Source: Alkalicella caledoniensis (GTDB lineage Bacteria; Bacillota; Proteinivoracia; Proteinivoracales; Proteinivoracaceae). Taken from it: a stretch of 64,000 nucleotides of DNA. Under the pieces are notes generated by a model. The model was given only the letters and a program-made list of their open reading frames with translations. It made no database searches and was not told the DNA's origin. Position numbers and translations under genes: made by a program. The stretch lies in NCBI RefSeq assembly GCF_014467015.1, contig NZ_CP058559.1:682001-746000 (forward strand), written 5' to 3'. This document shows, piece by piece, positions 12,019-18,587 of the stretch (positions are counted from its first letter, which is position 1; each line of letters begins with the position of its first letter).

Positions 12019-12284
12019 CAGCTTCGCAATTTTTTTATCTCCGTCAAAATCAGTGTTTAACCATGGCTAAGTATTTGAACTGCCGCCCTTGCTTCTAAGA
12101 TCATAAAGATCATGCAGATATGTAGCTAAAGGTCTGATGAATTTTACCACTACCTTGCACTAAAAAGCCCACACTATAAAAAGCAAGCTTAAAAATATTC
12201 ATAGCTATCCTTTAGAAACTTTCTTTTGCCTTTAAGATCATATAGATCATATAGATCATGTAGATCTGTGGCTAAGTTTTTGGT

Positions 12285-12411
12285 TTTGCCTTCTAGACGT
12301 ATATGGCTAAACCAGAATGCTCTTTGTGAAGGCCCGGGCAGGTTCGGAGCCCTGCACCCTACATTATAGTGTTATTTTCGAGGGTCCCAAGGCTGAAGCC
12401 TTGGCTACAAC
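12285..12411. repeat. 127-bp perfect duplicate, copy A
   Basis: Identical base for base to 12580-12706, 295 bp away, while the surrounding repeat units have diverged. This implies a recent duplication or gene conversion. It contains TTCTAGACGTATATGGC, the GGGCAGG/CCCTGC element and the 18-base palindrome. Confidence 0.95.
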
Positions 12412-12579
12412 GTTGTTAGGAGATACTTCTTGGTGGCCAATAATAAGCTTTTAGTCTCCAATCCCTATCCTATCCGTGAAAATCAGTGAAAATCCGTGGC
12501 TAAGATTTTGAACTTTCGCCCTTGCCTTTAAGATCATATAGATCATATAGATCATGTGATCTGTGGCTACGGTTTTGGC

Positions 12580-12706
12580 TTTGCCTTCTAGACGTATATG
12601 GCTAAACCAGAATGCTCTTTGTGAAGGCCCGGGCAGGTTCGGAGCCCTGCACCCTACATTATAGTGTTATTTTCGAGGGTCCCAAGGCTGAAGCCTTGGC
12701 TACAAC
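12580..12706. repeat. 127-bp perfect duplicate, copy B
   Basis: Second copy of 12285-12411, same orientation. Confidence 0.95.
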
Positions 12707-12915
12707 TTTTCAAAAAAATGGTCTACACAATTAAAAGCAAACTTAATAAGTGTCTTTAGTCATCAGCTTATAGCTATGTGAGTTCTCGTTTATCTTTTTA
12801 AATCCGTGAAAATCAGTGTTAATCCGTGGCTATGAACTTGAATTTCGCCCTTAGCCCTTAAGATCATGTTGATCATGTAGATCTGTGGCTAAGGGTTTAA
12901 ATAAAATCTTACCAA

Positions 12916-14649
12916 TTACACCATAAAAGTAGTAGCCATAATAGGATAGTTCAGTAAGAAGTAGTAGCCGAAGAGCCATACCACCATGCCCATAAGTACA
13001 TTCATTGATGAGCTAGGGGTTAGTTTTGCTAGTTTTAGTATTCCTATGGATACTGCTCCCATGAACAGTCCTGCTCCTAAATGGTATCCTTGGGATATGT
13101 CCATTATCACGTGGGAGAGTTCAAGTTTTGGTGCTAGGAGCCATATTACCACAAGTACCATTTGAAACAATGCATAGGGTTTGTCCTGTAAAAGGTATAA
13201 TAGCCCAATTTTATTCATGGCTGCAAATACTAACAGTATGACTATTATTAGCCCACCATTTTTTATTACTTCCATTACGCTAGTAAGTAACGACATACCT
13301 ACAAAATATGCAAATTGCCCTATTACACTTTCTTTTGTGTATGGATTAACCCCTAGTTTTAACCAAAGGGAGTTAGGTGCACTTTCTATATTGTTCCTAT
13401 AGTTTAGGTGATACAGTGAAGATGTCTCTCTATTCAACCAGATGGCGTGGATGTTTCCTTCTTTATCAGATAAAACTTGAGGAAATTTAGTATAGCTCCT
13501 ATCCCATGTAATCCTTTGTTGGTTGATACTCAGCTCTCCTGCGCTATTTATTTTACTAAAATAACCTTCACCATTTTCGTGTCTATCGTCTTCCCATGCA
13601 ATATATAAATTATCACTTCCATCTATGTTTATCGTTGGAAAGTGTGAGATGCCCCGCTCATTTGATATAATCCTTTGATCCACCAGTTCACCTGTTGGGC
13701 TTACTTTCAAATATCCTACATCCATTACAAAGGGCACCCCCAAGCCTGGTCCCATGGTATGATGTGTATAAACTATATGATGATACCCCTTTGAATCTGT
13801 AACCATCAGTGGTGCTATGTCTCCATAGGCATATGTGGTAATTTCCCCCCCATCTCCTATACGATGGGGCGCCGACGCTATTTCTTTATGACTTAGGTTG
13901 TTTTCAACATCTATTTCAGCCATGATAAGTGCATCAACTCTTTTGTAGAATATCTTTGTACCTAAGTTATCATCTGTTGAAAATTGGAAATATGGTAGTA
14001 CAGTGGTCCTTGTTGCTGTGCTACTAAAATCAAGAAAAGATTTGGATTGCAACAATTCCCCTTCTAGTGTCCTTCTTTCATAGAAGGCCAGTGGATTACG
14101 ATTTGCTATCATTGAAAATACCATGAACAGTTCATGACCATTTGTTTGCAAGTTAACTATAGGTATGGTGGCAAATCTTTCTGCCCCTTCTGTACCTGAT
14201 AATTTTTGTTCCCGTAACATCTCCCCAGTAAAATCGAAGGTATATAAATATAAATCACTGTTATACTCCTTCGCTCTAGATGTAACTATATATATTTTTT
14301 CGTCTAATATAACAAAATCAATGCCTGTTGTTCGGTGATTCTCTACAGTTGTTATAACCTGTCCCATATCCCCAGGTTGACCATAGCTAATTTTATATGT
14401 CATGGTTTTTTCTGTTTCTTCCCAAAATCCATGGTAATAAACTCCGTTAATCTCCTTAAATATTGGAGGCAGATTTAGGTTTACACCGTGTATTTGCCCT
14501 TGATTTTCAGGCACTGACCAATCAAACCGTTCTAGGTATTGCCATTGATTTTCTGAGTCTTGAGCTAGGACACTCTTTGTGGCTAGGGAAAGCACCATAA
14601 CAACAACAATAACTAGAGTTGCAGCCAATGAGCTTATAGTTCTACGCAT
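12916..14649 (-). CDS. Exported beta-propeller-like protein with C-terminal membrane domain
   Basis: 577 residues, not recognised as a named family. It has a signal peptide (about 1-29, ending SVLAQD), a 400-residue extracytoplasmic region with propeller-like repeats (DSKGYHHIVYTHH, DGSDNLYIAWEDDRHENGEG, DKEGNIHAIWLNR), then about five hydrophobic helices from residue 445 onward. The start overlaps the 3' end of the upstream permease gene by 8 bp, so the two are co-translated. The repeats resemble BNR/sialidase-like blades but no catalytic set is apparent. It may present a ligand to, or sense through, the permease; that is inference. Confidence 0.7.
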   Translation of the reverse strand: MRRTISSLAATLVIVVVMVLSLATKSVLAQDSENQWQYLERFDWSVPENQGQIHGVNLNLPPIFKEINGVYYHGFWEETEKTMTYKISYGQPGDMGQVITTVENHRTTGIDFVILDEKIYIVTSRAKEYNSDLYLYTFDFTGEMLREQKLSGTEGAERFATIPIVNLQTNGHELFMVFSMIANRNPLAFYERRTLEGELLQSKSFLDFSSTATRTTVLPYFQFSTDDNLGTKIFYKRVDALIMAEIDVENNLSHKEIASAPHRIGDGGEITTYAYGDIAPLMVTDSKGYHHIVYTHHTMGPGLGVPFVMDVGYLKVSPTGELVDQRIISNERGISHFPTINIDGSDNLYIAWEDDRHENGEGYFSKINSAGELSINQQRITWDRSYTKFPQVLSDKEGNIHAIWLNRETSSLYHLNYRNNIESAPNSLWLKLGVNPYTKESVIGQFAYFVGMSLLTSVMEVIKNGGLIIVILLVFAAMNKIGLLYLLQDKPYALFQMVLVVIWLLAPKLELSHVIMDISQGYHLGAGLFMGAVSIGILKLAKLTPSSSMNVLMGMVVWLFGYYFLLNYPIMATTFMV

Positions 14650-15721
14650 TTTCCTTCACCTCCATAGCTCCCCTTAAAGCTTCACCAATGATATTTACAC
14701 TTATAATCAGTACGAATATTAATAGCCCAGAAATAGCCACTGTCCAAGGTGCCACCCTTACTACATACCCTTGATATCTTCTAAAGAGGCCTCCCATAAC
14801 CTGTGCCCATCCACTACCACCAAACCCTAAAAATGCAAGCATTGCATCATACATAAGAACTTGACCTACAAAATTTGAGGTTTGGAGAAGAATGGACGAA
14901 ATACAGTTTGGCAGCAAGTGTCTAAATATAATCTCAAATTCACTACACCCCGCAGCCTTTGCCTGCTGTACAAATTCTCTCTCCCTTAAGGAGAAAAGCT
15001 CTGCCCTTATAATCTTGGCCAAAGTGCATCCACCGAAAATGGAAAACATCCATATCCTTATGTCTGGATGGCGAAAAACCATTAGCACCAGTAAAAACAG
15101 CATAATGGGAGCAAAGGCCAGCATGCTTTCAACAATTAACATCAAAATTTTATCCACAAATCCCTTAAAATAACCAGCTATGGTTCCTAGCATTACACCT
15201 ATTATTACGCTATATAGTGCTGCCAAAAGGGGCGTGTTTAATACATTTCTAGCATTAATAGCCATTATTGTAAGGTTATCATATCCAGATGGGTGTAAGC
15301 CAAAGGGGTGTGTTAAAGATGGGGCAAAGCTCATATCCCTAAGCTCCGTATAGCGATATAGAATTTCGTATGGATGTTTCATAAATATTTCTGGTCTATA
15401 TGCCATAATTGTAAAAATCACCAGGACAAATATTGCAAACCACACCGCTTTATATTTAAAAAATTTTCTAATAAATATCTTTGATTTTCGTTTTAATGTT
15501 CCCTGATCAACACCAAAGTTATTTTTCAGTGTCTCTAACACCTTTATTTTTTTCTCTCTTATGTTTTTAATTATTTGGTAAAGGGCTACTAAAACTATCC
15601 CACATATAACAGCCACTTCAATATTAGAAATATAGCCTATGACTACCTTTCCTCCGTAAACATAAAAAACTAAAAATGATAAAAGCGTAAGTACATATAG
15701 TGCAAATTTTATTACTCCCAT
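14642..15721 (-). CDS. Orphan DppC/OppC-type ABC transporter permease
   Basis: 359 residues. Two extra N-terminal helices (about 5-47) precede a charged linker and a standard BPD_transp_1 permease core with the EAA loop EFVQQAKAAGCSEFEIIFRHLLPN at roughly 255-278. The NPL-like N-terminal segment (PYEILYRYTELRDMSFAPSLTHPFGLHPSGYD) matches DppC-type proteins. A DppC normally needs a DppB partner, two ATPases and a binding protein, yet none is nearby: upstream is a divergent regulator. Only the propeller-membrane gene is co-transcribed. It is either served by distant subunits or repurposed. Confidence 0.85.
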   Translation of the reverse strand: MGVIKFALYVLTLLSFLVFYVYGGKVVIGYISNIEVAVICGIVLVALYQIIKNIREKKIKVLETLKNNFGVDQGTLKRKSKIFIRKFFKYKAVWFAIFVLVIFTIMAYRPEIFMKHPYEILYRYTELRDMSFAPSLTHPFGLHPSGYDNLTIMAINARNVLNTPLLAALYSVIIGVMLGTIAGYFKGFVDKILMLIVESMLAFAPIMLFLLVLMVFRHPDIRIWMFSIFGGCTLAKIIRAELFSLREREFVQQAKAAGCSEFEIIFRHLLPNCISSILLQTSNFVGQVLMYDAMLAFLGFGGSGWAQVMGGLFRRYQGYVVRVAPWTVAISGLLIFVLIISVNIIGEALRGAMEVKENA

Positions 15722-15960: not shown

Positions 15961-17280
15961 ATGACACTAAGTGTAGGAGAAAATCTATATTATATTAGAA
16001 GAAAGTATAAATTAAGACAACACCAAATTGTAGAAGGTACTGTATCTAGGAACCTTATTAGTATGATAGAACATGGTAAGACACCCCTCCTTGAATCTGT
16101 TGCCAAAACCATCGCCACTAATATAAATAAGTTGATTAGGGACAAGCATCCCTCAGTATATATCGACTCCGATGATTTACTCAACCCTTCTAGATACCAA
16201 GCAAAAAATGTTGCTGATATCTATGCAGCTAAGATAAGAAATGCCATAGCTGAGAAATGGGAGTTAAGTGATTCTACGGTCTTAGAGATGGAAGAATTTT
16301 TAAACCTTTGGAATCTAACAGATAAAAAGGTTGCTATTTATGAGCTTTTAGGAGATTTGTATTATTCTTTAAATGATGTAGAGAAAGAGTACCTTTACTA
16401 TAATAAGGCTTTTGACAATGCTTTAGCTTATAAAGGGATAAAGGAAAAGTACAAAATTGTAGGGAAGTTGATACATAACTGTATAGTTAGTGAGAAGAAC
16501 CGGGAAGTGATCAGACTTGCATCTTTAATTACTTCTATAGAGAAAGATATTTCTCCCCCTTATCTAAAGTCCATCTACTATAATTCAGCCATAGCTTACA
16601 AAAGAGTAAGGGAATTTAACAATTCTATATTGTCATTAGAAAAAGCTAAACACTATACCTCACTAGAAGAAACAAAACTTTTATATGGGATATATCTGTT
16701 AGAAGGCAATTGTTATAAAGAGAGAGGAGAATTTGCAAAGGCAATAGAGTGTTACAAAGAAGCTTTGACATTTGACCTAGATGTTGAAAGCAAATGCCAT
16801 ATTTATACTAATATAATTGATATCTACATAAAGGAAGATAAACCCCATGAGTACTATAAATATATAGAAAACGTTTTAAAGTTAGAAAGTACTGAAGAAT
16901 TCATAACACATACAGGTGTTAAGGTTTACTACATGATGGGTAGCTTCTTTAGAAAACTAAGTGATGTAGTAAAAGCAGAAGAGTATTTTTTAAAAGCAAT
17001 GGAGCTCATCAAGAAAAAAAACAATAGAAGTCTTCATTTTAAACAAACATTGATAGACCTTTTCGAGCTTTATAATCAAACAGGTGACAATAAAAAACAA
17101 ATCGGTTTAATTAATAGTGTTAAGGAAATTATTGACTCCGGCCATGTTGAGATAAACTCCGATACTGTTTTACTAATGAAATATGTTCTTTTGCTCTTAG
17201 AAAGACAAGATGGTGCCACTGCTAAAGAACTTATTTTAAAAACCATAGATAAGGGAGGTGTTTTGGATGTCCTTTCTTAG
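15961..17280 (+). CDS. HTH-TPR (RRNPP-type) peptide-responsive transcriptional regulator
   Basis: 439 residues. An N-terminal XRE-type helix-turn-helix (about 5-55: GENLYYIRRKYKLRQHQI, SRNLISMIEHGKTP) is followed by about seven TPR-like helical hairpins from about 120 to 425 (LLGDLYYSLNDVEKEYLYY, YNSAIAYKRVREFNNSI, LEGNCYKERGEFAKAIECY, MMGSFFRKLSDVVKAEEYF). This is the architecture of PlcR, NprR and related receptors of secreted peptides. A small gene for an exported peptide overlaps its last codons. The promoter region upstream is very AT-rich; no confident -35 was chosen. The ribosome site (AGTAGGG) is modest. It probably controls the peptide gene, itself, or the divergent permease operon. 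Confidence 0.88.
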   Translation: MTLSVGENLYYIRRKYKLRQHQIVEGTVSRNLISMIEHGKTPLLESVAKTIATNINKLIRDKHPSVYIDSDDLLNPSRYQAKNVADIYAAKIRNAIAEKWELSDSTVLEMEEFLNLWNLTDKKVAIYELLGDLYYSLNDVEKEYLYYNKAFDNALAYKGIKEKYKIVGKLIHNCIVSEKNREVIRLASLITSIEKDISPPYLKSIYYNSAIAYKRVREFNNSILSLEKAKHYTSLEETKLLYGIYLLEGNCYKERGEFAKAIECYKEALTFDLDVESKCHIYTNIIDIYIKEDKPHEYYKYIENVLKLESTEEFITHTGVKVYYMMGSFFRKLSDVVKAEEYFLKAMELIKKKNNRSLHFKQTLIDLFELYNQTGDNKKQIGLINSVKEIIDSGHVEINSDTVLLMKYVLLLLERQDGATAKELILKTIDKGGVLDVLS

Positions 17281-17404
17281 AAAAACCCTTGCAACACTAC
17301 TGGTTTTTGGAGTAGTATTCTCAGTAATTATTGCCCCATTGTCTGGCAGCCCAGATGATCCTGAGGGACACAGACCAGACTACATTGTCACTGAAACTTC
17401 TTAG
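17267..17404 (+). CDS. Small exported signalling peptide precursor, candidate partner of the HTH-TPR regulator
   Basis: 45 codons starting ATG at 17267, with a very strong GGGAGGTG site (17253-17260) inside the end of the regulator gene; the genes overlap by 14 bp. The product begins MSFLRKTLATLL: a basic residue pair, then a hydrophobic stretch (about 8-24), then a polar tail with SGSPDDPEGHRP and ending PDYIVTETS. This is the form of Phr/NprX/PapR-type pro-peptides, exported by Sec and trimmed to a short C-terminal signal. The overlap, strong ribosome site and terminator just after make it a real gene. The mature peptide and its import route are unknown. Confidence 0.8.
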   Translation: MSFLRKTLATLLVFGVVFSVIIAPLSGSPDDPEGHRPDYIVTETS

Positions 17405-17424
17405 AAAAGATGCCTTTACACAAA

Positions 17425-17464
17425 AATAATCCAAGGACAGAAATCTGGACTTGGATTATTTTTT
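17425..17464. terminator. Bidirectional terminator between the peptide gene and mmdB
   Basis: Stem AATAATCCAAG / CTTGGATTATT with an inner CAG/CTG helix, spanning 17425-17460, with T6 on the plus side and T5 on the minus side. It serves the convergent regulator-peptide unit and the propionate operon. Confidence 0.85.
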
Positions 17465-17465
17465 A

Positions 17466-18587
17466 TTACCCCAGTAAACTTAACAGTATTCCTGCTGCCA
17501 CTGCTGACCCTATAACACCAGCCACGTTAGGACCCATGGCATGCATTAATAGGTAGTTTTCTGGGTTGGCTTTTTGACCCACCTGTTGGCTTACCCTAGC
17601 GGCCATGGGTACTGCAGATACTCCTGCAGACCCTATAATAGGGTTTATCTGACCTTTTGTTAATTTACACATAATCTTACCCATAATCACACCAAAGGCA
17701 GTACCTACAGTAAATGCAACTAGCCCAAGTAAGATAATTTTTAGTGTGTCTATGTTTAAAAACCCTTTGGCTGTGGCAGTCGCTCCCACTGATAGCCCCA
17801 AAAAAATTACAACTATGTTATTAAGTTGATTTTCCGCTGTATTTGCAAGCCTTTGGGTTACTCCACTTTCCTTTAAAAGATTCCCAAACATCAAACAGCC
17901 CACCAAAGGCAGAGATTGAGGAATTATAAATCCACAAATTAGGGCAACTGTCAGGGGAAATACAATTCGCTCTTGTTTAGACACTTCCCTAAGCTCTTGC
18001 ATCTTGATTTTTCTTTCTTCTTTACTGGTTAAAAGCTTTATGACAGGAGGTTGTATTATGGGAACCAAAGCCATATAGGAGTATGCAGCTATAGCGATTG
18101 AACCGATAAGATGGGGTGCTAAGGCGTTCGTTAGAAATATGGCAGTTGGTCCGTCAGCCCCACCGATTATCCCTATTGCTGCAGCTTCTTTAATATCAAA
18201 GCCTAAAAAGATTGAACCAATTAATGTAAAAAATATTCCGAATTGGGCCGCGGCTCCTAAAAACATAGTCTTTGGATTAGCTATCAATGGTCCGAAGTCT
18301 GTCATGGCACCTACCCCTATAAATATCAATGGTGGATATATATTTAATCTTACCCCTTGATACAAAATATACAAAAGCCCTGGGCTTTCACCATCGGCCA
18401 TCAAGTTGCTTAAGGGGAAGTTAGTTAAAAACATTCCAAAGGCAATGGGAAGAAGAAGTAGAGGCTCATATTTTTTATATATGGCCATATACATAAGTAG
18501 CAATGATATGATTAGCATGATAATCTCTTTAGAAGAAATATTTAGTAATGCTGTTTGGTTAAAAAAATCCAGTAAATGGTCTAACAC
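17466..18587 (-). CDS. mmdB: Na+-pumping decarboxylase beta subunit (OadB/MmdB)
   Basis: 373 residues, a polytopic membrane protein. It has the conserved IGGADGPTAIFLTNALAP segment, with the Asp needed for Na+ coupling, and PIIGSAGVSAVPMAARVSQ with NYLLMHAMGPNVAGVIGSA near the C-terminus. It decarboxylates carboxybiotin and exports sodium. Last gene of the twelve-gene operon, 16 bp after the biotin carrier gene. Confidence 0.95.
   Translation of the reverse strand: MLDHLLDFFNQTALLNISSKEIIMLIISLLLMYMAIYKKYEPLLLLPIAFGMFLTNFPLSNLMADGESPGLLYILYQGVRLNIYPPLIFIGVGAMTDFGPLIANPKTMFLGAAAQFGIFFTLIGSIFLGFDIKEAAAIGIIGGADGPTAIFLTNALAPHLIGSIAIAAYSYMALVPIIQPPVIKLLTSKEERKIKMQELREVSKQERIVFPLTVALICGFIIPQSLPLVGCLMFGNLLKESGVTQRLANTAENQLNNIVVIFLGLSVGATATAKGFLNIDTLKIILLGLVAFTVGTAFGVIMGKIMCKLTKGQINPIIGSAGVSAVPMAARVSQQVGQKANPENYLLMHAMGPNVAGVIGSAVAAGILLSLLG

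Follow-up and report, generated by a model that had tools for sequence, protein, structure and literature searches.

Does the gene for an HTH-TPR receptor in Alkalicella caledoniensis, overlapped at its 3' end by a short open reading frame (ORF), form a peptide quorum-sensing pair with that ORF, as the initial annotation of the locus had proposed? The stretch of DNA analysed, hereafter the window, covers 64,000 nucleotides, and the features on which the question turns are listed below.

15961..17280, + strand: HTH-TPR receptor gene, 439 aa
15976..16116, + strand: HTH domain of the receptor, residues 6-52, missing from the two closest homologues (L005 and L006)
16810..16812, + strand: codon of Asn284, the residue that pairs with TPR asparagines in the alignments to NprR and Rap(pLS20)
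17253..17260, + strand: Shine-Dalgarno (SD) sequence of the small gene, GGGAGGTG, within the receptor 3' end
17267..17404, + strand: putative pro-pheromone gene, 45 aa (MSFLRKTLATLLVFGVVFSVIIAPLSGSPDDPEGHRPDYIVTETS), its first 14 bp lying within the receptor gene
17422..17463, + strand: terminator-like hairpin with a T-rich 3' side (-21.9 kcal/mol, z -5.0)

Several TPR models of Pfam matched the receptor above their cut-offs (the best being TPR_1, E 2.9e-11), and residues 6-52 matched HTH_19 with an E of 0.0024, which is under the Pfam curated cut-off. The HTH motif is clearly common to the HTH-bearing homologues L004, L007 and L008. A single-sequence structure model of low confidence (mean pLDDT 59.8) was all-helical, and its comparison with the PDB matched generic TPR proteins, with RapF and PlcR among the tied rows. 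The HTH and the TPRs reported by the initial annotation were recovered, and its count of seven TPR-like units is approximate, about 8-9 helix pairs being modelled past the HTH. In NCBIfam, neither the receptor nor the 45-aa protein had a match over the cut-off.

The small ORF begins with an ATG at 17267, 6 nt after GGGAGGTG, and its stop codon ends at 17404. In a simple hydropathy scan, the small protein runs from a basic start through a hydrophobic stretch to a polar tail, SPDDPEGHRPDYIVTETS, whose C-terminus is PDYIVTETS. The 14-bp overlap, the strong SD, the hydrophobic leader and the PDYIVTETS end had been described before and were all found as described. At 439 aa and with TPRs, the receptor falls within the range for RRNPP(A) receptors (250-500 aa with TPRs), and the 45-aa product, at -14 bp and with a 7-base SD match, falls within that for their propeptides (10-100 aa, -60 to +400 bp, strong SD). 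The pair also agrees with the length, distance and RBS criteria of RRNPP_detector (PMC10075063). The hairpin sits directly 3' of the small-gene stop, which fits a single transcript for the receptor and the small ORF, and probably also serves the convergent gene at 17466-18587. It was missed by the consensus terminator scan, which permits loops of 3-8 only. Promoter matches in the window were no more numerous than in shuffles.

To estimate how often this arrangement arises by chance, we examined the window and 20 further stretches of its genome, 464 kb in all. For each of the 330 ORFs there that were 150 aa or longer, we asked whether a 30-80 aa ORF preceded by an SD match and encoding a hydrophobic leader lies downstream. 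When the SD had to match at 7 bases or more, the combination was found at 1/330 genes, the small ORF of the window receptor alone; when 5 bases sufficed, it was found at three of the 330, the window locus included. One of the other two is a 35-aa ORF (L040, 5744-5851) that has a hydrophobic leader and a strong SD and lies 60 bp past a FAD oxidoreductase gene; we rejected it as a comparable pair, the preceding gene being an oxidoreductase and no receptor.

The nearest homologues of the receptor come from the same bacterial family (L005 in genome G004 and L006 in genome G002) and show about 28% receptor identity. Further homologues occur in two other genomes (L004 and L008 in G063, L007 in G017), and a phylum-wide search of 398 genomes added distant receptor homologues and nothing closer. 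The scan of the relatives, slightly wider than that of the background (ORFs of 20-100 aa, SD of at least 5), revealed an overlapping, leader-bearing small ORF in L005 (69 aa, -11 bp) and L006 (62 aa, -14 bp), as in the window (45 aa, -14 bp), and these are the only three loci at which the pair is present. All three small ORFs have a strong SD and a basic/hydrophobic leader, and a strong hairpin lies directly 3' of each (3/3). The same arrangement was found in the positive control, Rap-Phr of plasmid pLS20, in which, as in the window, the propeptide gene starts inside the end of the receptor gene (4-bp overlap). At six HTH-TPR homologues (L004, L007, L008, L014, L015 and L018), the same scan detected no such small ORF. 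The initial annotation had held that a small frame not conserved in relatives would speak against the pair; the frame is present in G002 and G004 and absent from the more distant HTH-TPR homologues. When the three small proteins were combined into a profile, only their own three loci rose above background in 21 genomes, matches that are expected by construction. In a tree of the TPR region only, the three peptide-bearing receptors form a group separate from the other homologues, the support being modest (57 and 88).

These data bear on a simpler explanation, in which the receptor would be an ordinary HTH-TPR regulator of the XRE type that has no peptide ligand, and the small ORF would be fortuitous or untranslated. 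The HTH-TPR architecture is common and most homologues outside the family have no small ORF, as this explanation would predict; the background of 1/330 argues against it, as does the finding that two relatives, whose receptors are about 28% identical, repeat the strong SD, the leader and the terminator, and we regard this explanation as quite improbable.

Additional evidence comes from the residue predicted to hold the peptide. The best natural PDB protein found with the receptor profile was NprR, itself an RRNPP receptor (E 8.8e-9), and in a weak alignment Asn284 falls on a TPR asparagine of NprR. In a comparison with Rap(pLS20) by hhalign, also weak (E 0.0036, probability 9%), Asn284 falls on Asn219; in TPR alignments such as these, registers may slip. 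A TPR asparagine conserved in the RNPP proteins, Asn227 of RapF, holds the peptide backbone (PMC3601957), and the asparagines of NprR and Rap(pLS20) aligned with Asn284 would be its equivalents. At this position all three peptide-bearing receptors have N, and three peptide-less ones have H, H and N. The receptor-propeptide pairing made in the initial annotation is supported by the asparagine alignment and by an anatomy that has a low background and recurs in two relatives and the positive control. We consider it probable that the locus encodes a chromosomal RRNPP-type quorum-sensing pair of the nine-TPR kind.

Among known systems, the pair resembles NprR-NprX of the Bacillus cereus group, a nine-TPR 'clan B' RRNPP system, in its receptor with an HTH and a long TPR array and in the small exported-propeptide gene beside the receptor gene (PMC9765709), export being predicted in our case. 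It differs from NprR-NprX in its low identity, in its peptide and in an HTH that is under the Pfam cut-off. Unlike the Rap phosphatase family, the window receptor has an HTH-like domain and no evidence of a response-regulator target, and a search of its genome gave no match to the RapH_N three-helix bundle. The order of an HTH-TPR regulator followed by a short exported-precursor gene, in an anaerobe, is also that of Qsr-Qsp in Clostridium acetobutylicum and QssR in C. saccharoperbutylacetonicum (PMC7376267). The Qsp precursors have C-terminal Leu, Pro and Trp in common (PMC7376267), whereas the window tail SPDDPEGHRPDYIVTETS has Pro and no Leu or Trp, a comparison made by precursor and not by receptor sequence. 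Taken alone, the window pair is probably one more RRNPP system, of a kind already known. We found no report in the literature naming Proteinivorax with 'quorum' or Natranaerobius with 'RRNPP', and the pair, if real, would bring peptide quorum sensing into an anaerobic bacterial family for which the literature searched gave no such report.

From these features we infer a course of export, processing, import and binding, with a DNA target and a direction of regulation. A single transcript, terminated at the hairpin that follows 17404, would yield both the receptor and the 45-aa propeptide. Export of the propeptide would use its putative Sec-type leader, and cleavage would follow, plausibly by signal peptidase between LSG and SPDD. 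Part of the SPDDPEGHRPDYIVTETS tail would return as a short peptide through an oligopeptide permease and bind the concave face of the TPR superhelix, where Asn284 would hold its backbone. Binding would then alter DNA binding by the N-terminal HTH, and gene expression would follow cell density. OppA-like binding proteins are present in all seven genomes searched (three in the window's genome), which makes peptide import plausible.

The long hydrophobic stretch, with a cleavage site that is only predicted, also agrees with a small membrane protein that would act with the receptor in cis, anchoring or inhibiting it, with no secreted pheromone. Poorly conserved tails and differing lengths (45, 69 and 62 aa) point the same way. 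However, the tails past the hydrophobic segment are polar, like that of the Phr control, and peptide binding is the better fit to the asparagine alignment and to a receptor of the NprR/Rap type; we therefore see a cis-acting membrane protein as unlikely. Crosstalk between RRNPP receptors and peptides exists (PMC9765709), and the propeptide could be translated and act on another receptor, the adjacent one sensing a different ligand. The receptor is single-copy in its own genome, however, and the receptor profile found no second receptor of the family there, its other match being a weak HTH match only. Moreover, the two genes overlap and are therefore probably co-expressed. Action on another receptor appears very improbable, and a secreted peptide read by the adjacent receptor is the reading we retain.

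The identity of that peptide was examined through the tails. The window tail showed no significant pairwise similarity to those of the two relatives (p = 0.48 and 0.96), and the tails of L005 and L006 are alike (p = 0.02). The initial annotation had also counted an unconserved tail beside a conserved receptor against the pair; this applies in part, to the window tail and not to the tails of the two relatives when compared with each other. A six-residue end-anchored match (HRPDYI/YAPDPI/NAPFPM) gave p = 0.04 in a test picked afterwards. As the window tail has no pairwise conservation, it does not establish a pheromone, and the mature form is not deducible from it. Fast divergence of propeptides has been published (PMC9765709); an unconserved tail is therefore expected, yet uninformative.

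Of greatest interest is a feature found beyond the window, the loss of the HTH in the two sister genomes. The receptor homologues L005 (1405-2574) and L006 (1423-2574) have no HTH, and each is overlapped by a propeptide-like ORF. Alignment of both homologues to the window receptor begins only near residue 89, and both receptor ORFs start shortly 3' of an 11/12 promoter match with an extended -10. No HTH remnant was found in any forward frame of the short stretch up to the divergent ferredoxin gene. Since the window receptor and the outgroups have an HTH, the simplest reading of these sequences is that the HTH was lost in the sister lineage and the propeptide was kept. Receptors without an HTH are also seen in Rap, and RRNPPA subfamily 17 of Anoxybacter fermentans, whose receptor is of the nine-TPR kind (clan B), is reported to have lost its HTH (PMC12700828). 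By its published description, that subfamily is like L005 and L006 and unlike the window receptor, which retains the HTH. We tentatively propose, at slightly less than even confidence, a lineage-specific RRNPP family whose output changed from an HTH factor to an HTH-less TPR protein while the overlapping propeptide gene was kept throughout. If true, HTH loss as in Rap and Anoxybacter subfamily 17 would have another example, this time within one bacterial family, and the receptor would offer a compact case of a move from DNA-binding to HTH-less output with the pheromone gene retained. This output switch could then be studied directly by setting the window receptor against its two HTH-less homologues.

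As for the target of the receptor, the initial annotation had pointed to a divergent permease/propeller operon about 240 bp upstream. The distance was correct: 239 bp separate the receptor ATG from the permease start codon at 15721. The operon (12916-15721, - strand) consists of an orphan OppC-like permease gene followed by a gene of 577 aa, which had been called a propeller and for which the Pfam search gives no match. In G002 the homologue of this gene and the receptor lie about 63 kb apart, G004 has no such homologue, and between 15700 and 15985 we found no convincing operator palindrome, only short A+T-rich ones. Adjacency alone ties the receptor to this operon, and its role as target, the other half of the original quorum-sensing proposal, is not supported. 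A paralogue of the 577-aa propeller-like gene, 48% identical, lies outside the window (G000:C1:640225-641862).

A phage origin of the locus was considered and rejected: there was no phage match, PHROGs gave no match for the window proteins, and no receptor homologues were found in viral contigs. A plasmid origin was rejected as well, the plasmid collection having given two weak matches, in Ilyobacter and Acetoanaerobium, of which that in Acetoanaerobium has no small ORF. Finally, the intergenic region at 12029-12896 carries repeats with no match in Rfam: a 105-nt element in three copies that are 68-75% alike, a 152-nt element in two copies (97%), and a 36-nt unit of the AGATCATATAGATCAT type.
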